A stretch of DNA of 38,055 bases from Gammaproteobacteria bacterium (GTDB taxonomy: Bacteria; Pseudomonadota; Gammaproteobacteria; Burkholderiales; Gallionellaceae): assembly GCA_018819205.1 (NCBI GenBank), contig JAHJQE010000051.1, positions 1-38,055 on the forward strand. The letters are read 5' to 3'. A model generated the notes under the pieces. It was not told the DNA's origin, did not search any database, and worked only from the letters and a program-made list of their open reading frames with translations. Below are positions 9,516 through 19,850 of this stretch, piece after piece (positions within the stretch are counted from its first letter, which is position 1; the number at the start of each line of letters is the position of its first letter). The translations under genes and the position numbers were made by a program.

Positions 9516-11222
9516 ATGAAACTGACGACCCGCTTCCTGCTATTGCGTGCTGCTGTGTTTCTGCTGTTCGGGGCACTGCTGTGGCTGACGTTCATCGCGA
9601 TAGTCGAGGATATCAACCAGCGCTGGGGGCACGAGCTCGCCCAGCGGCAGGTGTTGTTCGACAAATATCGCACGCTGTCCCCGCTGATCAGCGAAATCGC
9701 GCTGGCACGCAAAATGGCCGCCGAGCCGGCCCTGATCGAGATGGCGTTGAACGAGCGCGATCCTGTGCTGCGACGTCGGGGACTGCAGATACTCGAGGAC
9801 TATCGTTTCCGCTTCAGCGACCACAGCTATTTCGCCGCTTTTGCGGATAGCGGGAATTATTACTATAACGATGCGGATAACAGCTTCGCCGGTCGTCAGC
9901 ATCGCTACACCCTGTCGCCCGGGAACAAAGGCGATATGTGGTTCTATGCAACCCTGACTGCGGATACGGACTATCAGGTCAATGTCGATCCCGATGTACA
10001 TCTCGGTGTGGTTAAGGTCTGGATCAATGTTCTGCTCAAGCACGAAGGCAAGACATTGGGCGTGGTGGGCACCGGTATCGATCTGTCCGATTTCCTCAAG
10101 CAGAGTGTCGGCATCAAGCAGGAGGGCGTGGACAACTTCTTTGTGGACAAGAGCCTTGCCATACAGCTTTCCACCGATCCGGATCTGATCGACTATGCCA
10201 GTATCGCCAAGAAACTCGATGAGCGTATCCGGGTCGATGTGCTGTTTAGGAATCCGGCTGACATGCAGGCATTGCAAGTCGCTGCTCAGGAGTTACTGGA
10301 CAAGCCGGGCGGGGACTTGTTGACGCTGTGGGTGGAATACCAGGGAGCGCGCCATCTGCTGGGGATCTCTTATCTGCCTGAACTGGGATGGTATGACCTG
10401 ACGCTGATGGACGAACAGAGTGTCGCTGTACTGCAGGGCTATGCCTGGATGCCGCAGCTGTTCTCGCTGTTGCTTTTGCTGGCGCTGGTCGCGCTGGGTG
10501 TGTTGCTTAATCGCTGGGTGCTCTATCCGATCCGCCGCTTGCATGAAGCGATGCAGACCATCCAGAGCGGTGACGACAGCATAGAGCCCCCGCTGGTGGG
10601 TAAGGGGGAAATGCTTGCCTTGTCCAATTCCTTCGCGCAGATGGTGCATGTGGTGCGGGATACACATGCCGAACTGGAACGCAAAGTGAGAGAGCGCACC
10701 GAGGCCTTGCAGCATCTGAGCGAGATCGATCCGCTGACCGGCCTGCTCAACCGGCGCGGCATGATGATCCGCTTCGAAGAGGAGTTGTCCAGACAGGCGC
10801 GCCAGGACGGCACACTGGGACTGCTATTGCTCGACCTCGATCATTTCAAGGATGTGAACGACCGCTATGGGCATGCGGCGGGCGATCTGGCGCTGTGCGC
10901 CGCTGCCAAGGCGCTGGGTGACATGATGCGACCCTACGACCATGCGTCGCGCTGGGGCGGGGAAGAGTTCCTCGTTCTGCTGCCGGATTGCAATGAAGCG
11001 GACCTGCTCGCGATCGCAGAACGCATTCGAGCAAGTATCGAGGCATTGGTGCTTGATACGGGTCAGCAGAAGATATCGTTCACGGCGAGTGTAGGTGCTT
11101 GTCTGCAGCAGACACCACAGACACCGGACGCAATGTTGCAGCAGGTGGATCGCGCGCTGTATGCCGCCAAGGCTGCCGGCCGCAACTGTGTGAAACTGTC
11201 GTCTAGGGCAGAGCTATCTTGA
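9516..11222 (+). CDS. Membrane Cache-HAMP-GGDEF diguanylate cyclase
   Basis: A 568-residue protein starting at ATG 9516, four bases after the previous stop. TM1 covers about 8-30, a periplasmic Cache-like domain about 31-308, TM2 about 311-331, then HAMP, a coiled linker containing KVRERTEALQ, and a C-terminal GGDEF domain with GGEEF at 481-485 (RWGGEEF). An RxxD product-inhibition site (RPYD) sits five residues upstream. There is no EAL, so this is the one gene in the cluster predicted to be a dedicated diguanylate cyclase. Its stop codon (TGA, 11220-11222) is nested in the TTG start of the next gene, so the two are translationally coupled. The ligand of the Cache domain cannot be told. Confidence 0.94.
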   Translation: MKLTTRFLLLRAAVFLLFGALLWLTFIAIVEDINQRWGHELAQRQVLFDKYRTLSPLISEIALARKMAAEPALIEMALNERDPVLRRRGLQILEDYRFRFSDHSYFAAFADSGNYYYNDADNSFAGRQHRYTLSPGNKGDMWFYATLTADTDYQVNVDPDVHLGVVKVWINVLLKHEGKTLGVVGTGIDLSDFLKQSVGIKQEGVDNFFVDKSLAIQLSTDPDLIDYASIAKKLDERIRVDVLFRNPADMQALQVAAQELLDKPGGDLLTLWVEYQGARHLLGISYLPELGWYDLTLMDEQSVAVLQGYAWMPQLFSLLLLLALVALGVLLNRWVLYPIRRLHEAMQTIQSGDDSIEPPLVGKGEMLALSNSFAQMVHVVRDTHAELERKVRERTEALQHLSEIDPLTGLLNRRGMMIRFEEELSRQARQDGTLGLLLLDLDHFKDVNDRYGHAAGDLALCAAAKALGDMMRPYDHASRWGGEEFLVLLPDCNEADLLAIAERIRASIEALVLDTGQQKISFTASVGACLQQTPQTPDAMLQQVDRALYAAKAAGRNCVKLSSRAELS

Positions 11223-14065
11223 GCCGCTTGCACAAGTTTATTTCGGGTATGGCCCTGCTGGCAGGGCTGGTCCCCATGACGCAAGCGGCAGCGCAGGAAG
11301 TACATATCGGGGTGCTGTCGTTCCGTCCGCTTGAGCAGACGCGTCAGCAGTGGCAGGCCACCGAGGATTACCTGAACGCCCATGTGCCCGGCGGTTATCA
11401 CTTCAGCATGGAACCGCTGTTCCTGAAAGACATGGATGTGGCGGCTGCCGAGCGACGTTTTGATTTCATCCTCACCAATCCCAGCCACTACATCGTGCTG
11501 CGAACTCGCCATGATCTGGCGGTGATCGCCACCCTGATGCAGAAGATCGAAGGTCGGCCGGTGGACAGCTTCGGCGGGGTGGTGTTCGCGCGTGCCGAGC
11601 GTGCCGATATCCGTGATTTCGCAGACCTGCGCGGGCGCAAGGTCGCAGCCGCCGAGGAGCAGTCGTTCGGTGCCTATGCAGTGCAGCGCTGGGCTTTGTA
11701 TGAACAAGGCATCCAGATCAGCGAAGTGGGCAAAGTGACCTTCACCGGCATGCCGCAGGACAATGTGGTGATGGCGGTGCTGCGTGGCGAGGCCGATGCG
11801 GGCTTCGTGCGTACCGGCGTGCTGGAGAACATGGCGCGCGAAGGCAAGATCAAACTGGATGATGTGAAAGTGCTGAATCTGGAGAAGGATGCGGATTTCC
11901 CGCAAATGCTCTCCACCAGACTGTATCCGGAATGGGCGCTCTCCGTTTTGCCGGGCGTGCCGGAGGCTTTGACTCGGCGGGTGGTGCTGGCCTTGCTGCG
12001 CATCAAGCCCGAGGATGAGGCGGCGCGCACAGGCAAGTACTACGGTTTCACGCCGCCCGGCAACTATGCGCCGGTGGAGGCGGTGATGCTGCGGCTGAAA
12101 ACCAATCCCGATCTGGCGCAGGAGTTCGATCTGCGCGACATTCTGAACAAATACATGCATCCGCTGGTCGCTATGGGTCTGTTGATGCTGCTGCTGACTA
12201 TGTGGCTGGCCGGTTTTCTGGCGCGCAACAACCGCCGTTTGCGTGCCAGCATCGTTGAGCGGGACAGGCTTGATGAAGCCCTGCGATTCGCCAACACTTC
12301 CCTGGAGCAAAAAGTGACGGCACGCACGCTGGCACTGCAGAAAAGCGAGGCGCGTTTCCGTCACATGTTCGAGAGTCACGCTTCGCCGATGCTGCTGATC
12401 GAGCCGGAAAGCGGAAGTATCGTGAACGCCAACATGGCCGCAGCGAACTTCTACGGATATTCGATCGAGCAGATGAAGGATATGGGCATCAGCCAGATCA
12501 ATACCCGGAACCCGGAAGAGATCGCACAGGAGCGGATGCAGGCGCTGCGCGAAGAGCGAAACTATTTCGTGTATCCGCACCGCTTGGCCGACGGCACCTT
12601 GCGTACGGTGGAAGTGCATTCTTCGCCGGTCGAGGTGGATGGCCGCAAGTTGCTGTTCTCGGTAGTGCATGACATCACCGAGCGCAAGCGACTGGAACAG
12701 CAGATGCACGACCTGGCGTTCTACGATGTGTTGACCGGCCTGCCCAACAGGCGACTGCTGCTCGACCGCCTGAATCAGGCGCTTTCGACCTGCGTTCGGA
12801 ACCGGCAACACGGCGCCCTGATGTTCCTCGATCTGGACCACTTCAAGTTGTTGAACGATCTGCATGGCCATGACATCGGTGACCAGATGCTGGTCAAGGT
12901 CGGACGACGTCTGCGAGAGTGCCTGCGCGAAGGGGATAGTGCCGCCCGCTTCGGCGGTGATGAATTCGTGGTGATGCTGGAGAACTTGTCCGCCGATGTC
13001 GAGGAGGCGGTGTTGCAGACCGAAGTAGTGGCCGAGAAGATCCGCCAAGTGCTGGCAAGACCCTATCTGCTGCATCGGTCCGGGGCGGGGGGGGAGTCGG
13101 AAGAGATCGTTCACCATTGCTCTTCCAGTATCGGCATCACCGTGTTCGGGGATCACGAGGAAGAGATGGATCAACTGCTCAAGTGGACGGATATGGCGAT
13201 GTATCGCGCCAAAGAAGAGGGACGCAACGCCATCCGTTTCTTCGATCCGACCATGCAGGCTGCCGTGGAGAAGCGTGCCGCCCTGGAAGCAGATCTGCAT
13301 GAAGCGCTGTCGTCCGGGCAATTCGAACTGTTCTTCCAGGTGCAGGTCGACGCAGCGCGCCGCCCGCAGGGAGCCGAGGTGTTGCTGCACTGGAACCATC
13401 CGCAGCGCGGCCTTGTACCGCCGCTGGAGTTCATCCCGCTGGCAGAAGAGACCGGACTGGTCCTGTTGATCGGTAACTGGGTGCTTGACTCGGCTTGTGC
13501 CCAGATCAAGGCGTGGCAGGGCATGCCGACGCTGAGCAATATGACGCTGGCGGTGAACGTCAGTGCACGGCAATTCCGCCAGCCCGATTTCGTGGAAATG
13601 GTGCAGGCCGCCGTAGCTCGGCACGGCATCACGCCGACCTCGCTCAAGCTGGAGTTGACCGAGAGTCTGGTGCTGGAAGATGTGACGGACTCCATAGCCA
13701 AGATGAAGGCACTGAAGGAATTCGGCGTCAGTTTTTCCATGGACGATTTCGGTACAGGGTATTCCTCGCTGTCGTATCTGAAGAACCTGCCGTTGGAGCA
13801 GCTCAAGATCGACCAGAGTTTCGTGCGCAGCATCGCCAGCGACTCTGCCGACCGGGTGATGGTGATGGCGATCGTCGATCTGAGCATGAACTTCGAACTC
13901 AATGTGGTCGCCGAGGGCGTCGAGACCGAAGCACAATTCGCACTTCTGCACCGCTATGGTTGCGGGAGTTTCCAGGGTTATCTGTTCAGCAAACCCTTGC
14001 CAGTCGGCGAGTTTGAAAAGCTGGTCGAGGATTTGGCGCAGCAAGGCAAGCGGGTCACCCACTGA
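11219..14065 (+). CDS. PhnD-like binding domain/PAS/GGDEF/EAL sensor protein
   Basis: A 948-residue protein. The TTG start at 11219 overlaps the previous TGA; it is preferred because it supplies the basic N-terminus of a signal peptide (about 1-25, ending AQAAA-like TQAAAQ). Residues about 27-310 form a PhnD/TtrS-type periplasmic binding domain (HIGVLSFRPLEQTRQQW, FDFILTNPSHYIVL). TM about 314-337, coiled linker, PAS (about 375-490), GGDEF (579-583, RFGGDEF, RxxD site REGD), then an EAL domain whose signature is E720-V-L-L-H724-W instead of EALxRW. NVSARQF, ELTES, DDFGTGYSSL, KIDQSFV and EGVET remain. Loss of the signature Arg may weaken hydrolysis and tilt the enzyme to synthesis. PhnD-type sensors in TtrS-like kinases detect oxyanions, so an oxyanion ligand is a reasonable guess but unproven. 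Confidence 0.93.
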   Translation: MSRLHKFISGMALLAGLVPMTQAAAQEVHIGVLSFRPLEQTRQQWQATEDYLNAHVPGGYHFSMEPLFLKDMDVAAAERRFDFILTNPSHYIVLRTRHDLAVIATLMQKIEGRPVDSFGGVVFARAERADIRDFADLRGRKVAAAEEQSFGAYAVQRWALYEQGIQISEVGKVTFTGMPQDNVVMAVLRGEADAGFVRTGVLENMAREGKIKLDDVKVLNLEKDADFPQMLSTRLYPEWALSVLPGVPEALTRRVVLALLRIKPEDEAARTGKYYGFTPPGNYAPVEAVMLRLKTNPDLAQEFDLRDILNKYMHPLVAMGLLMLLLTMWLAGFLARNNRRLRASIVERDRLDEALRFANTSLEQKVTARTLALQKSEARFRHMFESHASPMLLIEPESGSIVNANMAAANFYGYSIEQMKDMGISQINTRNPEEIAQERMQALREERNYFVYPHRLADGTLRTVEVHSSPVEVDGRKLLFSVVHDITERKRLEQQMHDLAFYDVLTGLPNRRLLLDRLNQALSTCVRNRQHGALMFLDLDHFKLLNDLHGHDIGDQMLVKVGRRLRECLREGDSAARFGGDEFVVMLENLSADVEEAVLQTEVVAEKIRQVLARPYLLHRSGAGGESEEIVHHCSSSIGITVFGDHEEEMDQLLKWTDMAMYRAKEEGRNAIRFFDPTMQAAVEKRAALEADLHEALSSGQFELFFQVQVDAARRPQGAEVLLHWNHPQRGLVPPLEFIPLAEETGLVLLIGNWVLDSACAQIKAWQGMPTLSNMTLAVNVSARQFRQPDFVEMVQAAVARHGITPTSLKLELTESLVLEDVTDSIAKMKALKEFGVSFSMDDFGTGYSSLSYLKNLPLEQLKIDQSFVRSIASDSADRVMVMAIVDLSMNFELNVVAEGVETEAQFALLHRYGCGSFQGYLFSKPLPVGEFEKLVEDLAQQGKRVTH
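13087..13094 (+). repeat. G8 mononucleotide tract between GGDEF motif and EAL
   Basis: Eight consecutive G within a Gly-rich insert (SGAGGES) of the GGDEF domain downstream of its active site. The sibling proteins at 1-1569 and 2747-5344 lack this insert. A slip would remove the EAL half. Confidence 0.9.
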
Positions 14066-14286
14066 GGGCTGGCGAAAGAGCATTCCGCGCTCAATGGTCC
14101 CGGCTGCGAGCCTTCCCCGTTACATTTTGCGTGTCCCGCCCGGAACTTAATTCCCCGACTTTCGGTCGCAGGGCAGGCTACCTGTGGCTGGTGCCATGGT
14201 GACTAATCGAAGAAGTGAAGATTGTCAACTTTGCAAAATTTTTTTCCCCTATAGAATCGCGCCCGTTTTCGAGGAGCCATAACAGA
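14066..14286 (+). promoter_or_regulatory. Intergenic leader of cytochrome operon, weak promoter candidate
   Basis: 221 bases with no gene. The best promoter-like match is TTGCAA (14231-14236) and TAGAAT (14252-14257) with a short 15-base spacer; TTGTCA at 14222-14227 is a better -35 hexamer but too far from any -10. A T-rich run (14239-14245) lies between. No convincing intrinsic terminator for the upstream c-di-GMP genes is visible, so read-through into the cytochrome genes is possible. Confidence 0.3.
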
Positions 14287-14877
14287 ATGTCGGATAAAGA
14301 GGCAGTGCAGGTGAAGGTTTGGGATGTGCCGGTCAGGCTGTTCCACTGGTCGCTGGTGGCGGGTTTTGCAGCGGCATATTTCTCCGCCGAACTGCACAAG
14401 ATGACCGTGCATGTATGGGTCGGTTATGCCTTGATCGCCTTGTTGCTGTTCCGCCTGGTGTGGGGTTTTGCTGGCAGCCAGTATGCCCGCTTCAAGTCCT
14501 TCATCTTTTCGCCGCAGGAAACATTGGCCTATGTGCGTTCCATTCGCGCAGGCCACCCCAGGCATTATTACGGCCATAACCCGGCCGGAGCGTTGATGGT
14601 GTTTGCATTGCTGGGTTTGTTGCTGGCGATCTTTGCCACAGGTCTGGTCACGCTGGCGGTGATCGACTTCGAAGGGCCGCTGCTGTTCATGGCCAACAGC
14701 GTCAGCGACGAGACGGCATATTTCTTCCGTCACGCGCATGACTGGATGGTGAACATCGCGCTGTTGCTGATCCCGCTGCACCTGCTGGGCGTGGTGAGCG
14801 GCAGTTTGCAGCACAAGGAGAATCTGGTGCGCGCGATGGTGACCGGCATGAAAGCCAAAGCGCCGGAAGCGCAGTGA
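14287..14877 (+). CDS. Cytochrome b561-like membrane protein of SHP operon
   Basis: A 196-residue integral membrane protein; start ATG 14287 behind GAGGAG. Four main hydrophobic segments (about 18-35, 41-61, 100-124, 152-172) carry the His pattern of bacterial di-heme b-type cytochromes: H20 in VRLFHW, H42 in VHVWVG, H151 in HDW and H165 in IPLHLLGV. Such proteins pass electrons between quinol and periplasmic c-type cytochromes. A cytochrome b of this kind is the standard partner of SHP and DHC, which follow two and three genes later. So the likely role is electron supply from the quinone pool to DHC and then SHP. Heme number and direction of flow are inferred from the family. Confidence 0.9.
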   Translation: MSDKEAVQVKVWDVPVRLFHWSLVAGFAAAYFSAELHKMTVHVWVGYALIALLLFRLVWGFAGSQYARFKSFIFSPQETLAYVRSIRAGHPRHYYGHNPAGALMVFALLGLLLAIFATGLVTLAVIDFEGPLLFMANSVSDETAYFFRHAHDWMVNIALLLIPLHLLGVVSGSLQHKENLVRAMVTGMKAKAPEAQ

Positions 14878-14918
14878 TAGTGAAAAAAATAGTATCGATT
14901 TATCAAGAGGAGGAAGTT

Positions 14919-15545
14919 ATGGATGTTAAGCAACGTAGCGGCATGGCGCTGGCAGGTGCCGTGATGCTGGCCTGGACCGGGCTGGCGGGCGCGCAGGAAG
15001 CGCCACTCGACCTTTCCACACCGGCGCAGGCCTATGCACAACGCGCGATGCCGATGATGCTGGCCGCGAACGACAGTGTGGTGGCGACGGATAAGTCGCC
15101 GTCCGTGACAGCGCCGAGCGCGCAGCCAGAGTTCGAGGAATCATGGCTGACCGGCGGCAAGGCCCACATGGTGCTGGGGCTGGCCACCATCGCCACCGCG
15201 CTGGCGACCGGCGCGACCGCTCCCGGCGAGGGCTGTGAGACAAATTGTCCGGCGGTGTTGCCTCCGCGCGAGACCAATGGTACGCACGCCAAGCTGGCCA
15301 AGCTCACTACGGCACTGGCCGTTGCGACCGTGGCGACCGGCTTGTACTACCACTGGGACGACTTCCATCTGGAAGACGGCCTGACCGATCCGGATAACTT
15401 GCACGTCATCCTCGGCGTGACCGGCGCGGCGCTGATGGCGTATGCCACGGCCAAGTCGGCCGGCTCTACCACACCGGTGAGCCATGCCGGCATGGGCATG
15501 GCCGGTGCCTACGGCATGATCGCCGCAGTCAAGATCGCTTGGTAA
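14919..15545 (+). CDS. Unrecognised exported four-helix membrane protein with aligned histidines
   Basis: A 208-residue protein not assigned to a family. Start ATG 14919 is preceded by AGAGGAGGAAG, a strong ribosome site. Residues 1-25 are a signal peptide ending LAGAQE. After a low-complexity Ala/Ser/Pro stretch come four short hydrophobic helices (about 82-100, 122-141, 161-178, 188-205), each opening with a His: H83 (KAHMVLG), H123 (THAKLAK), H162 (NLHVILG) and H189 (SHAGMGM). H145 and H150 lie just after helix 2, and C106/C110 are in the loop between helices 1 and 2. One His near the same end of each of four helices resembles heme-b four-helix proteins, so a b-type cytochrome is possible, but this is inference. 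It sits inside the SHP operon, 41 bases after the b561 gene and 10 before SHP. Confidence 0.85.
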   Translation: MDVKQRSGMALAGAVMLAWTGLAGAQEAPLDLSTPAQAYAQRAMPMMLAANDSVVATDKSPSVTAPSAQPEFEESWLTGGKAHMVLGLATIATALATGATAPGEGCETNCPAVLPPRETNGTHAKLAKLTTALAVATVATGLYYHWDDFHLEDGLTDPDNLHVILGVTGAALMAYATAKSAGSTTPVSHAGMGMAGAYGMIAAVKIAW

Positions 15546-15555
15546 GGGACACGAC

Positions 15556-15954
15556 ATGAAAAGACTTACTGCGATGTTGATGGTGCTGGGGCTGTTCGCT
15601 GCCGTGCCGGCTGCTGCCACACCGGCCAGCGATACGCTGCTGGTGAAGTATCAGTCCGATGGCGCTGGCAAGCCAGATGCCGCCAAGGGCAAGAAGGACT
15701 GGACGCGCGAGGAAGTGGTGGACGGCGAGAAGATGTCCTGCGCCACCTGCCACGGTACCGATTTCAGCAAGCCGGGCAAGCACCACAAGACCGGCAAGGT
15801 GATCGAGCCGATGTCGATGAAGGTGAATGCCGAGCGCTTCACCGACGTGAAGAAGATCGAGAAATGGTTCAAGCGCAACTGCAAGGATGCCTGGGGGCGT
15901 GAATGCACAGTGCAGGAGAAGGCCGATTTCCTGACCTTCCTGCTGGCTCAATAA
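15556..15954 (+). CDS. shp: SHP-type cytochrome c (DUF1924 family), oxygen/NO-binding heme protein
   Basis: A 132-residue periplasmic monoheme cytochrome c with a signal peptide (about 1-21, AAVPAAA). The heme site is CATCH at 62-66. Near the C-terminus the family hallmark FKRNCKDAWGREC appears: N108 corresponds to the Asn that serves as displaceable heme ligand in sphaeroides heme protein (SHP), and C109/C117 could form the nearby disulfide. SHP is unusual among c-type cytochromes in binding O2, NO and other small ligands, and it takes electrons from DHC, encoded by the next gene. Start ATG 15556 behind AAGGGAC. The physiological reaction (gas sensing, NO or O2 chemistry) is not settled for the family. 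Confidence 0.9.
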   Translation: MKRLTAMLMVLGLFAAVPAAATPASDTLLVKYQSDGAGKPDAAKGKKDWTREEVVDGEKMSCATCHGTDFSKPGKHHKTGKVIEPMSMKVNAERFTDVKKIEKWFKRNCKDAWGRECTVQEKADFLTFLLAQ

Positions 15955-15969
15955 TTCCGGAGAAAGAAT

Positions 15970-16530
15970 ATGCATATGAAGATTAAATCCATGATCCTGC
16001 TGGTGGCCCTGCTGGGTGCGACCGGCGCCGCGCAGGCAGAGGAATCCGTATGGACCTGGCTGGGCACGATCTGGCGCCAGAACGAAGTGAACCCCGTGAG
16101 CAACGCGGCCTGGCAGGAGGAGTGCGGTTCCTGCCACTTCGCCTACCAGCCCGGCCTGCTGCCGACGCAATCCTGGGAGAAGCTGCTGGACGCCAAGGCG
16201 CTGGAAGACCACTTCGGCGAGAACGCCGAACTGGATGCCGACACGCTGAAGGAAGTGCGCGATTTCGCGCTGGAGAACGCGGCCGACAAGTCCTGGTACA
16301 AGCGCGCCCGCAAGATCGCCAAGGCGACCGAGAACGGCGAAGCATCGTTGCGTATCACCGAGGTGCGTTACATCAAACGCAAGCATCACGAGATACCGGA
16401 GAAGATGATCAAGGGCAACAAGGATGTGAAGTCGCTGAGCTATTGCGATGCCTGTCACACGCAGGCCAAGAAGGGCGTGTTCGACGAGGACACCGTGCGA
16501 ATCCCAAACTATCCCGACTGGGAAGACTGA
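15970..16530 (+). CDS. dhc: Diheme cytochrome c (DHC), electron partner of SHP
   Basis: A 186-residue periplasmic protein with a signal peptide (about 1-23, ATGAAQA). Two heme-c motifs are visible: CGSCH at 52-56 and CDACH at 159-163, widely separated as in DHC. The sequence WRQNEVNPVSNAAWQEECG before the first heme and the C-terminal PNYPDWED also fit DHC. The start is ATG 15970 behind GGAGAAAG; a second ATG two codons later (15976) is an alternative. DHC reduces SHP, so with the upstream cytochrome b it completes a quinol to b to DHC to SHP chain. The operon ends here, 15 bases before a strong hairpin. Confidence 0.92.
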   Translation: MHMKIKSMILLVALLGATGAAQAEESVWTWLGTIWRQNEVNPVSNAAWQEECGSCHFAYQPGLLPTQSWEKLLDAKALEDHFGENAELDADTLKEVRDFALENAADKSWYKRARKIAKATENGEASLRITEVRYIKRKHHEIPEKMIKGNKDVKSLSYCDACHTQAKKGVFDEDTVRIPNYPDWED

Positions 16531-16545
16531 ACCGCTTAAGTCGAC

Positions 16546-16585
16546 GTCATGAAAAAGGGCAGCCTTGGCTGCCCTTTTTCATGAC
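16546..16585 (+). terminator. Intrinsic terminator, symmetrical
   Basis: A 19-base perfect inverted repeat (GTCATGAAAAAGGGCAGCC and its complement) separated by TT. The A5 tract on one arm and T5 on the other make it terminator-like on both strands. It closes the SHP/DHC operon; with the next gene also on the + strand, its main role is to isolate the cytochrome operon from downstream genes. Confidence 0.9.
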
Positions 16586-16694
16586 GGATATAGACCGGTA
16601 TATAGGCCATTGGATATATCGTTATTTGAATGTGTCGCAGTTATAGTGCGCGGGCGTTGGCGCGTGAGGGGCCATCATTCAATCAGGAGAGGTC

Positions 16695-17678
16695 ATGCAG
16701 TCACAACAGGAACATGCTTTCGAGTTCACCGGCAAAGGCTGGGAATATTTCAGGATATGGATCGTCAACCTGTTGCTGTCCATCCTCACGCTGGGCATCT
16801 ACAGCGCCTGGGCAAAGGTGCGCCGCTTGCAGTATTTCTACCGCAACACTCGTCTGGCCGGTGCCGGTTTCGAATACCACGGCACACCCATCGCCATCCT
16901 CAAGGGGCGCATCATCGCTTTCGTGTTGCTGCTGGCCTACACCATCGCAGGCCAGACGAATCCGCTGATGGCCATCCTGATCTTCGTACTGCTAGCGGGC
17001 GTGATGCCCTGGCTGATCGTGCGTTCGCTGCGTTTTAAACTTTATAACAGCAGCTACCGCGGTCTGCGTTTCGGCTTTGCAGGCAGTGACGGTGCAGCCT
17101 ATGCAGTGTTCCTGTTGTTCCCCATCCTCACCGTGCTGACGCTGTACCTGCTGGCACCGTTCACGCATTACAAGATCAAACAGTACCAGCACAACAACAG
17201 CCGCTTTGGCGACACTTTCTTCCGTTTCGATGCCACATCTGGAAATTTCTACGGCATCTATCTCAAGGCATTGGGCTTGCTGGTGCTGGCCGGTGTGTTC
17301 TTCGGCATCTCTGCCGCCTTGCATATGCCTGTCCTGATGCTGGTCCTGCCGCTGTTCTATCTGTACATCGCCGGCTTTCTGTCGGTGCGCCTGCCCAATC
17401 TGATCTGGGATAAAACAGGTCTGGGTGAGCACGATCTGTACAGTCGCATGGAAGTAGGCAAGTACCTGTGGATTGCCTTCACCAACCTGCTTGGCATCGT
17501 GTTCACGCTAGGCCTTTACATCCCCTTCGCGCAGATCCGCATGTCCCGTTACAAATTCAGCTGCATGGGCTTATTGGCACAAGGCGATCTTGCCGAGTTT
17601 GTGGCAGGACAGGCGCAGTCGGATAGCGCCACCGGTGAAGAGACCGCCGAGATGTTCGATCTGGATATCTCCCTATGA
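16695..17678 (+). CDS. YjgN-family (DUF898) inner-membrane protein
   Basis: A 327-residue polytopic membrane protein starting at ATG 16695 behind AGGAGAGG. It shows the two-repeat DUF898 pattern: a short soluble start (FEFTGKGWEYF), then hydrophobic segments with the recurring motif of a helix followed by GIYSAWAKVRR (about 35-45) and again GLYIPFAQIRMSRY (about 275-288). About six to eight membrane segments are predicted. The function of YjgN is unknown. A M48 peptidase gene follows after 69 bases; YjgN/M48 pairs encoded together are a familiar bacterial arrangement, which suggests a shared envelope role. The 100 bases upstream contain AT-rich patches (TATAGT at 16642-16647) but no -35 at good spacing. 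Confidence 0.9.
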   Translation: MQSQQEHAFEFTGKGWEYFRIWIVNLLLSILTLGIYSAWAKVRRLQYFYRNTRLAGAGFEYHGTPIAILKGRIIAFVLLLAYTIAGQTNPLMAILIFVLLAGVMPWLIVRSLRFKLYNSSYRGLRFGFAGSDGAAYAVFLLFPILTVLTLYLLAPFTHYKIKQYQHNNSRFGDTFFRFDATSGNFYGIYLKALGLLVLAGVFFGISAALHMPVLMLVLPLFYLYIAGFLSVRLPNLIWDKTGLGEHDLYSRMEVGKYLWIAFTNLLGIVFTLGLYIPFAQIRMSRYKFSCMGLLAQGDLAEFVAGQAQSDSATGEETAEMFDLDISL

Positions 17679-17707
17679 TGACAAATTCGCGTAGCGATTC
17701 GTTTGCC

Positions 17708-17731
17708 CTTTCTCCCGCGTGCGGGGGAAAG
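17708..17731 (+). repeat. Hairpin (REP-like inverted repeat) before the M48 gene
   Basis: 11-base arms, CTTTCTCCCGC and GCGGGGGAAAG, with a GT loop and one G-T wobble. It has no T-run, so it is not a classical terminator. It lies only 16 bases before the M48 start and could be an intergenic repeat, a transcript-processing site or a partial attenuator. Confidence 0.6.
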
Positions 17732-17747
17732 TCGGATAGGGGGTGAT

Positions 17748-18770
17748 ATGATCGCCGCGCAATATTTCGATGGCATGACCGCCGCCGCGCAGGTGGTGAC
17801 GCTGACGCTCGACGGCGAATGGCTGCAACTGCGCGGTGAAGTGCTGGCGCACGAATGGCCGCTGCGGGATGTCAAAGTCAGCGAGCGTCTGGGTGACACA
17901 CCACGCCGGATCGAGTTTTCCGATGGAAGTCATTGCGAAGTGACCGACCATGCCGCGCTGGATGTGTTGCTCAAGCAAGGCGGTTATCGCAGCAGCTGGC
18001 TGGATGGCATGCAGCACAGCATGCGCTGGGCCTTGCTCTCGGCAGTATTCATCGTGCTCATCTTCGCGGCCGCATACCGTTACCTGTTGCCCTTGGGGGC
18101 AGAGGTCGTCGCGCAGAGTATCCCGCCCAAGATGTTGCAGAAGATGGGCGCCTCGTCCCTGCAGACACTGGACAAGCTGATGCTCGAACCCAGCAAGCTC
18201 GCCCCCGAACGTCAGCAGGCCTTGCGCGCTGCCTATGCCAGGCTGGCGGCCTTGCCCGATGCGCAGCTAGCCTACCGCATCGAATTCCGCAGTGCACCGC
18301 AGATCGGCCCCAACGCCTTCGCCCTGCCGGACGGCAACATCGTCATGCTGGACGAACTGGTGGTACTGACGCAAGACGATGACGAGATACTCGCGGTACT
18401 GGCCCACGAGCGCGGCCATGTCGAGCAGCGCCACGCCTTGCGCATGGTGTTGCAGAGTTCGGCGGTGGGTCTGGCGATGACCTGGTACATGGGCGACGTC
18501 AGTTCATTGCTGGCGACGGTGCCGGCCATGCTGGTGCAAGCCAGTTACTCGCGCGATATGGAGCGCGAAGCGGATGAATACGCGGCGCGCACCCTGCAGT
18601 TGAACGCGAAGTCCCCCTGCCTGCTGCCCGACATCCTGCAGAAACTGGAAGCCGCGCATGCCAAACGCCAGGCAGAAGCCCGCAAGGAAAACGGCGGTTC
18701 GGTGATGGACTATCTGGCCAGTCATCCGGCCACACAGGAGCGCTCGGCGCTGCTCTGCCCCGCGCATTGA
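17748..18770 (+). CDS. M48-family membrane-anchored zinc metallopeptidase
   Basis: A 340-residue protein; start ATG 17748 behind GGGGGTGAT (frame open 45 bases upstream, but the hairpin lies there). The N-terminal ~85 residues form a small beta-rich domain typical of this subgroup, followed by one membrane segment (about 93-110). The peptidase domain has the zinc site HERGH (220-224) and the third ligand region MEREADEY (E274). SHPATQER near the C-terminus is also typical of M48. Relatives act in envelope protein quality control. Paired with the YjgN-like gene upstream. Substrate unknown. Confidence 0.92.
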   Translation: MIAAQYFDGMTAAAQVVTLTLDGEWLQLRGEVLAHEWPLRDVKVSERLGDTPRRIEFSDGSHCEVTDHAALDVLLKQGGYRSSWLDGMQHSMRWALLSAVFIVLIFAAAYRYLLPLGAEVVAQSIPPKMLQKMGASSLQTLDKLMLEPSKLAPERQQALRAAYARLAALPDAQLAYRIEFRSAPQIGPNAFALPDGNIVMLDELVVLTQDDDEILAVLAHERGHVEQRHALRMVLQSSAVGLAMTWYMGDVSSLLATVPAMLVQASYSRDMEREADEYAARTLQLNAKSPCLLPDILQKLEAAHAKRQAEARKENGGSVMDYLASHPATQERSALLCPAH

Positions 18771-18788
18771 TTCAAAAACTAATCTAGA

Positions 18789-18918
18789 CCACGAAAAACA
18801 CGAAATTCACGAAATGTGAGTCCAACTGTTGCACTACATTGCAGTAGTCACACTTCAGGTGAAGGTGCGAAACTATCTTGGCCTTTGGTTCTTTCGTGTC
18901 TTTTAGTGCATTTCGTGG
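18789..18918. repeat. 130-base element with imperfect terminal inverted repeats
   Basis: The left end carries three spaced CACGAAA units (CCACGAAAAACACGAAA then TTCACGAAA); the right end carries the matching TTTCGTG and TTTCGTGG units in opposite orientation with the same spacing (about 26-base imperfect inverted repeat). A small internal hairpin (ACTAC...GTAGT, about 18835-18849) lies between. It has no coding capacity. It fits a dispersed intergenic repeat or MITE-like element. It fills most of the 198-base gap between the M48 gene and hslO. Confidence 0.65.
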
Positions 18919-18968
18919 ACAACTGATTTTTTCAGGTTGATCCGCTCGCTGCGGTATCATCGCGCGCC

Positions 18969-19850
18969 ATGAAAACGCCATCCGATTCCCTATCCCGTTT
19001 CCTGTTCGAACAGCTGCCGCTGCGCGGCGAGATCGTGCGTCTCGACGACGTCTGGCAGCATGTGCTCGACCGCCACGACTATCCGCCCGTATTGCGCGAC
19101 ATGATGGGCGAGCTGTGCGCGGCCGCCGTGCTGCTGGCCGCCACGCTCAAGCTGGACGGTTCCATGGTGTTGCAGGTGCACGGCAAGGGCGCGGTGAAGT
19201 TGCTGGTGGTGGAGTGCAGCGGCGATCTTGAGTTGCGCGCCACGGCCAAATGGGAAGGCGAGATCACCCACGGCACGTTGCCGGAACTGGTGGGCGACGG
19301 ACGCTTCGTCATCACCCTGGATCCCAAGGAGGGCGGGCAAGCCTATCAAGGCATCGTGCCGCTGGAAGGCGACAGCATCGCCGACATCCTGCAAGGCTAC
19401 ATGACACGCTCCGAGCAACTGGAGACACGTCTGTGGCTGGCGGCGGATGCCAACAGCGCGGGCGGCATGCTGCTGCAGAAACTGCCGGAGCAGGGCGAGA
19501 CTGACGACGAGGATGCGTGGGACCGCGCGACACAGATCGCCGATACGCTCAAGCCGGAAGAATTATTGAATTTGCCCGCAGCAGAACTGGTGCATCGCCT
19601 CTATCACGAAGAAGACATCCGCATGTTCGACGCCCAGCCCGTGGTGTTCCGCTGTACCTGTTCACGCGACAGCGTCGCCAACATGCTGCGCATGATCGGG
19701 CGCGAAGAGGTGGACGAGATCCTGACCGAGCGCGAAGAGATCGAAGTGCACTGCGAGTTCTGCAACGAGCGCTACGTGTTCGACAAAGTGGATGCCGATG
19801 CAGTGTTCGTAGATGTGCCGGCGGTCACCGCCAGCAAGACCTTGCACTAG
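18969..19850 (+). CDS. hslO: Redox-regulated holdase chaperone Hsp33
   Basis: A 293-residue cytoplasmic chaperone. The C-terminal redox switch is present: C229-T-C231 and C262-E-F-C265, which bind zinc when reduced and form disulfides under oxidative stress, activating the holdase. The N-terminal substrate-binding domain and the characteristic stretch VQVHGKGAVKLL match the family, and the length is normal. ATG 18969 has no clear ribosome site; a TATCAT box lies only 8 bases upstream (18955-18960), so a very short or leaderless transcript is possible. Its TAG stop overlaps by four bases (CTAG) with the stop of the convergent oxidoreductase gene, with no terminator between. Confidence 0.97.
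   Translation: MKTPSDSLSRFLFEQLPLRGEIVRLDDVWQHVLDRHDYPPVLRDMMGELCAAAVLLAATLKLDGSMVLQVHGKGAVKLLVVECSGDLELRATAKWEGEITHGTLPELVGDGRFVITLDPKEGGQAYQGIVPLEGDSIADILQGYMTRSEQLETRLWLAADANSAGGMLLQKLPEQGETDDEDAWDRATQIADTLKPEELLNLPAAELVHRLYHEEDIRMFDAQPVVFRCTCSRDSVANMLRMIGREEVDEILTEREEIEVHCEFCNERYVFDKVDADAVFVDVPAVTASKTLH

Follow-up and report, generated by a model that had tools for sequence, protein, structure and literature searches.

The sphaeroides heme protein (SHP) operon of Rhodobacter and other proteobacteria is defined by three proteins, namely cytochrome b (CytB), SHP and the diheme cytochrome c DHC, and residues W84, N88, C89 and C97 have been named for O2-binding SHP (PMC2909971). In the chain described for SHP, electrons pass from quinol through cytochrome b and DHC to SHP and then to O2 or NO, and the step from DHC to SHP has been demonstrated for Rhodobacter. 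To our knowledge, nothing comparable to this DHC-to-SHP transfer is known for iron oxidisers. A second described system is the iron-responsive cluster Slit_1321-1324, later named ircABCD, which encodes a cytochrome b (IrcD), a hypothetical protein (IrcC), a monoheme cytochrome c (IrcB) and a diheme cytochrome c (IrcA) (PMC8788666, PMC12442390, PMC10734462). These genes were up-regulated with Fe(II) in Sideroxydans lithotrophicus ES-1 and with iron-oxidising ability in Sideroxydans sp. CL21 (PMC12442390, PMC8788666), and rank with the best markers proposed so far for neutrophilic iron oxidation in its active state (PMC12442390). The Slit_1322 protein was detected in ES-1, up to the 87th abundance percentile (PMC12016527), and IrcC, found as both transcript and protein, has only the annotation "hypothetical". 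The names SHP and sphaeroides heme protein are absent from the irc papers where these were consulted.

The window, which is the whole stretch of 38,055 nucleotides analysed here from a Gallionellaceae genome (contig JAHJQE010000051.1), contains at 14287-16530 the coding span of four genes that follow each other head to tail on the + strand: cytochrome b (14287-14877), the gene of a 208-residue exported protein that we call X (14919-15545, ATG start), SHP (15556-15954) and DHC (15970-16530), separated by 41, 10 and 15 bases. Pfam identified cytochrome b, SHP and DHC strongly. The original prediction was right in its coordinates and in these three names. Cytochrome b, of the IrcD/Slit_1321 type, matched the prokaryotic b561 family (PF01292, Ni_hydr_CYTB, 1.1e-23), and its six His columns were invariant in 75 relatives. 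SHP, of the IrcB type, belongs to PF09086 (DUF1924) with 133 bits against a cut-off of 22.5 (5.1e-39) and has a single CXXCH heme site, CATCH. DHC, of the IrcA subtype, belongs to PF09626 with 124.8 bits against a cut-off of 22.2 (4.6e-36) and has two CXXCH sites, CGSCH and CDACH. The operon end given originally, 16585, coincides with a hairpin at 16545-16586 (+ strand; 19-pair stem, -36.3 kcal/mol, z -8.2), which is likely the intrinsic (bidirectional) terminator of the operon. Upstream of the operon, a weak sigma-70-like promoter match at 14230-14257 (+ strand, 9/12 matches) was not significant, with 1 found and 0.9 expected by chance.

The gene directly upstream (11219-14065) encodes, according to Pfam, a phosphonate-type periplasmic binding domain fused to PAS, GGDEF and EAL, and such an input domain is unusual for cyclic-di-GMP signalling. 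Downstream, Pfam identified a DUF898 membrane protein (16695-17678) and an M48 peptidase with DUF7092 (17703-18770), which are followed by an Hsp33-like protein (18969-19850) that was judged by eye; in ES-1, Hsp33 is Slit_1325, immediately after the irc cluster.

Comparison with the irc papers (PMC8788666, PMC10734462) showed that the window operon has the defining irc arrangement, with adjacent genes for cytochrome b, a hypothetical protein, a monoheme and a diheme cytochrome c in a member of the Gallionellaceae. The four genes, their order, the host family and the hsp33-like downstream gene are all as in Sideroxydans lithotrophicus ES-1 and Sideroxydans sp. CL21, and the X of a relative (genome G028, locus L010) was 57% identical to the window X. 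The window operon is almost certainly the same system as ircABCD of Sideroxydans, and X is to be identified with IrcC. In the irc papers IrcC was left as a hypothetical protein, and IrcB and IrcA were described in general terms as a mono- and a diheme cytochrome, whereas here IrcB is assigned to SHP and IrcA to DHC. Residues W104, N108, C109 and C117 of the window SHP are the counterparts of W84, N88, C89 and C97 of SHP; the pattern W-x3-N-C-x7-C was matched in the window SHP and in 55/57 X-linked SHPs, and WFKRNC was present in 52 of these 57. By this correspondence IrcB retains the O2/NO-pocket residues of SHP. Because IrcB is SHP by Pfam and keeps the residues named for O2-binding SHP, irc can be classed as an SHP-type operon, which makes the biochemistry of SHP and DHC (O2 and NO chemistry, and electron transfer from DHC to SHP) applicable to it. 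Compared with the known SHP operon (PMC2909971), the window has all three defining proteins and keeps W84, N88 and the C89-C97 pair of the distal pocket, but it has the extra gene X and a distinct DHC subtype and no adjacent sensor kinase. The window genome also has a second SHP (G000:C54:10393-10662, L173) with a DHC-like neighbour, and neither X nor cytochrome b was matched within the 8.5 kb read there.

For X itself, single-sequence searches of Pfam, NCBIfam, PHROGs and the PDB gave no meaningful match, and profile searches of PDB sequences, one with 28 members and one with 53, gave no match. X had been proposed as a protein of no recognised family, and this holds, since no known family, non-heme families included, was found at a meaningful score in Pfam, NCBIfam or the PDB. 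Its export, also proposed before, is borne out by a signal peptide (residues 1-25, 14919-14993, + strand; predicted cleavage between AGA and QEA) with a near-invariant Ala25 at position -1 (79/82 sequences). The original prediction placed a His at the start of each of four helices, and in our model H83, H123, H162 and H189 do stand there, but the count was incomplete, with a fifth invariant His, H145, near the end of helix 2. H83 was present in 82/82 sequences, H123, H145 and H162 in 81/82 each and H189 in 80/82, and the exceptions were gaps. Since the five His are thus invariant, gaps aside, across 82 sequences that go down to about 30% identity, the pattern is evidently not due to chance. 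X is a real protein family. Invariant or near-invariant in 53-82 sequences were also A25, G87, G141, G169, the last residue W208 and the stretch HWDDFxxxDGxxDPDNxH, and the nearly invariant loop 146-161 was acidic, with about 5.8 Asp/Glu per sequence. The loop that joins helix 1 to helix 2, predicted to be cytoplasmic, has a CxxxC pair, C106 and C110 (about 15234-15248); most Gallionellaceae members have this pair (C106 in 51/82 sequences), and it was absent from the zetaproteobacterial X proteins read. New here are the X family and its range, the five invariant His, the fold model, the DHC-subtype partner and the link between irc and SHP, which together with gene content and co-occurrence come from the present analysis; induction and protein detection are taken from the literature.

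An AlphaFold2 model of X was built from 53 homologues and without heme (mean pLDDT 84). It gave a four-helix bundle of residues 79-207 (15153-15539, + strand), with helices at 79-99, 122-148, 158-181 and 190-207, mostly at pLDDT 89-98, that contains the five invariant His and the acidic loop. Permutation within helices showed that positions +4, +7, +11, +14 and +18 after the four helix-start His were smaller (94 vs 131 cubic angstroms, p 1e-4) and more conserved (0.85 vs 0.62, p 5e-5) than the others. Because the residues below the His are small and conserved, the bundle interior, lined mostly by Gly/Ala/Ser/Thr, appears to have room for one or more flat cofactors. The outward faces of the helices are hydrophobic in the middle and have charges mostly near the ends, and hydropathy is moderate, with 19-residue maxima of 1.2-1.4, below the usual membrane threshold. 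With the signal peptide off and four crossings, H83, H145, H162 and the acidic loop are predicted to be periplasmic and H123, H189, Lys125 and Lys128 cytoplasmic; the signal peptide, the acidity of loop 146-161 and the basic turn at 124-129 agree with an orientation in which both N- and C-terminus are outside.

The gathering of H83, H145, H162 and invariant acidic residues at one, predicted periplasmic, helix end of the model, together with the iron-responsive expression (PMC8788666), would also suit a protein that binds a non-heme metal (Fe, Cu or Zn) through its His and the HWDD...DPDNxH loop, such as a metal chaperone or an iron sensor serving the pathway. We consider this quite improbable, since it accounts neither for H123 and H189, which are invariant and lie at the other end, nor for the small-residue faces under all four His, and the X gene stands in a cytochrome operon and not beside metal transporters.

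We also compared X with known diheme bundles. In cytochrome b561, H1-H4 are found one per consecutive helix, with H1/H3 on the non-cytoplasmic and H2/H4 on the cytoplasmic side (PMC10691727). X is like the b561 core (PF03188) as defined there in that four helices in a row each carry an invariant His, and small residues below them would be a further likeness. Its predicted orientation, with H83 and H162 in the place of H1/H3 and H123 and H189 in that of H2/H4, is that of CYBDOM proteins, with the N-terminus outside and the C-terminus out (PMC10691727). But X falls below the Pfam cut-off, has no fifth or sixth helix and no evidence of an ascorbate site, and has in addition the invariant H145 and the long acidic loop. 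Weak Pfam matches of X concentrated on PF03188 (19/53 members, best 0.0019), PF01292 and DUF4079. The PF03188 gathering score of 23 bits was reached by no X member (best 18.9 bits, E 0.0019), none was above any cytochrome-family cut-off, and the weak b561 matches were out of register, with different helices aligned in different members. At the published b561 small positions (H1+7, H1+13, H2+14, H3+4, H3+18, H4+4, H4+18), X showed no enrichment of small residues when only Gly/Ala/Ser were counted (p 0.20) and an enrichment with Thr included (p 0.003); H3+4, H3+18 and H4+4 agreed and H1+13 failed. PF03188 genes were rare in the bacterial genomes searched, with 2 weak matches in 150. Homology of X to b561 in sequence is thus only suggestive, and X is b561-like on paper, with membership of the b561 family unproven.

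We also considered whether X derives from the cytochrome b next to it (PF01292), and rejected this because hhalign scored no better than its reversed control; single X members had only weak matches to PF01292, the best at 0.0042. An internal duplication of the two halves of X is not claimed, as only 14 columns aligned, with a probability of 10%. The de novo diheme bundles 4D2 and CytbX and cytochrome b6 are likewise four-helix bundles with two bis-His b hemes, the ligands in cytochrome b6 being on two helices only. 4D2 and cytochrome b6 were among the fold matches of X at Z 9-10, where sequences are unrelated and unrelated helical bundles rank level with the diheme ones. Foldseek gave no significant match for the model (best cytochrome oxidase subunit III and TRP channels, E about 0.1-0.5), and there was no solved b561 chain among the structure matches listed.

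In our reading, to which we give a probability of roughly 0.55, X is a small diheme inner-membrane cytochrome b that relays electrons between the membrane and IrcA; put more broadly, the product of the gene is probably a small membrane protein that carries heme and hands electrons on to a cytochrome partner located outside the inner membrane. We infer heme binding, the pairing of the ligands, the contact with quinone and the direction of flow. X would hold two b hemes with bis-histidine ligation in its four-helix bundle, on the same plan as the eukaryotic cytochrome b561 core, with H83 and H162 as putative ligands of the periplasmic-side heme and H123 and H189 as those of the cytoplasmic-side heme. 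IrcC would be made as a pair with IrcA and, alone or with IrcD, would move electrons between periplasmic IrcA and the membrane, where the quinone pool is the likeliest partner. IrcA may then exchange electrons with the O2/NO-reactive SHP (IrcB) and perhaps with other periplasmic carriers of the iron-oxidation pathway, and the flow could go either towards SHP from quinol, the direction of the canonical SHP chain, or in reverse, into quinone during Fe(II) oxidation. The anatomy of X (an invariant His opening each of four helices, a conserved core of small residues, weak matches to b561-clan families) supports, but does not prove, the additional b-heme carrier proposed in the original prediction.

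Among 149 relatives searched, 48 genomes carried X, every one of them from the family of the window, and a scan of 84,980 species genomes found 80 X loci, mostly in Gallionellaceae, then in Ghiorsea and other Zetaproteobacteria, with a few in gammaproteobacterial bins. A phylum-wide draw of 398 genomes had X in 26 and SHP in 86; as a survey for co-occurrence, which had been suggested along with the original prediction, it clearly linked the two, with SHP in 26/26 X genomes and X adjoining SHP in 25/26. The converse is not true: most SHP operons are without X, and those in the family of the window have the order SHP-DHC-cytochrome b. The recurring layouts were cytochrome b-X-SHP-DHC, SHP-(DHC)-cytochrome b-X-DHC, X-SHP-DHC (Zetaproteobacteria) and X-DHC alone. 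The first was the commonest, seen in 81 loci among those read, a count in which some genomes appear more than once, as would be expected if X were an accessory subunit of cytochrome b (IrcD) that completes one quinone-reactive complex and is no redox module itself. But the Zetaproteobacteria have the X-SHP-DHC operon without cytochrome b, there are X-DHC pairs with neither SHP nor cytochrome b, and X and cytochrome b have no sequence relation detectable by hhalign, which makes such a subunit distinctly unlikely, although 5/6 genomes whose X has no adjacent cytochrome b have other PF01292 genes elsewhere.

The same DHC subtype followed X in every layout with intact flanks, either directly or with SHP between; the exceptions, a few X genes standing alone, came from genomes with a full copy as well. 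In the DHC tree (98 sequences), the 76 members that follow X made up one whole side of a branch (support 82), and the X label needed 1 change against about 20 in shuffles, while SHP labels needed 5 changes. X-linked DHCs are also alike in having a longer N-terminus and an insertion, KRsRKIa. The tree thus gives good but not absolute evidence, because some joins involve long branches, that X-linked DHCs make up a distinct subtype. Because X tracks one DHC subtype across layouts and in the tree, the natural unit would be X with IrcA, and SHP would be exchangeable. The idea that X is a membrane platform for SHP was weakened by these data, as X is tied more closely to the DHC subtype than to SHP, and some X-DHC pairs have no SHP with them.

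The strict pairing with one DHC subtype could also come from a redox-inactive membrane anchor or assembly factor, a docking scaffold for IrcA whose His and acidic loop would form a site for docking or for a metal; that loop is nearly invariant and SHP is basic (calculated pI 8.9). IrcA itself is acidic (calculated pI 5.3), so simple charge docking does not fit, and docking needs less than a small-residue core together with an invariant His at the start of all four helices, on either face of the membrane. We regard such a scaffold as unlikely and keep to X as an electron relay. If IrcC is a diheme b cytochrome, this gives a specific and testable inner-membrane electron step in Gallionellaceae and Zetaproteobacteria. 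Tentatively, the IrcC family may be a new, minimal diheme membrane cytochrome b that forms with IrcA-type DHC a quinone:cytochrome c oxidoreductase module common to distantly related neutrophilic iron oxidisers; it could be a missing inner-membrane step from iron-derived electrons to the quinone pool, with the O2/NO-reactive SHP as a side branch.

Eight loci (L046, L062, L064, L070, L074, L077, L086 and L088) were hybrid operons, and because they place X and a second, X-type DHC after a complete SHP-DHC-cytochrome b set, they suggest that X-DHC was added as a module to canonical SHP operons. Second X copies at L056 and L060 (X alone) and L071 (X-DHC) adjoin the same helicase-like gene, by eye presumably of the DinG type, and the genomes concerned carry a more complete X operon as well.

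Cyc2 genes were searched with the motif FARQTGMACSACH, taken as a Cyc2 marker. The window genome had three Cyc2-like fused cytochrome-porin genes (G000:C2:8881-10149, G000:C64:16920-18074 and 18189-19361), and on this basis the organism very probably oxidises iron. A strict tie of X to Cyc2 was rejected, because no Cyc2 match was obtained in five X-bearing gammaproteobacterial bins, though these bins may be incomplete or their Cyc2 divergent. X is therefore not simply an iron-oxidation gene, and its link to iron may be indirect, for example via life at low O2 or with NO. Within the family, Cyc2 was found in 32/33 near-complete genomes with X and in 18/31 without X (p 1.6e-4, a statistic that ignores kinship), which agrees with the published iron-responsive expression of irc.
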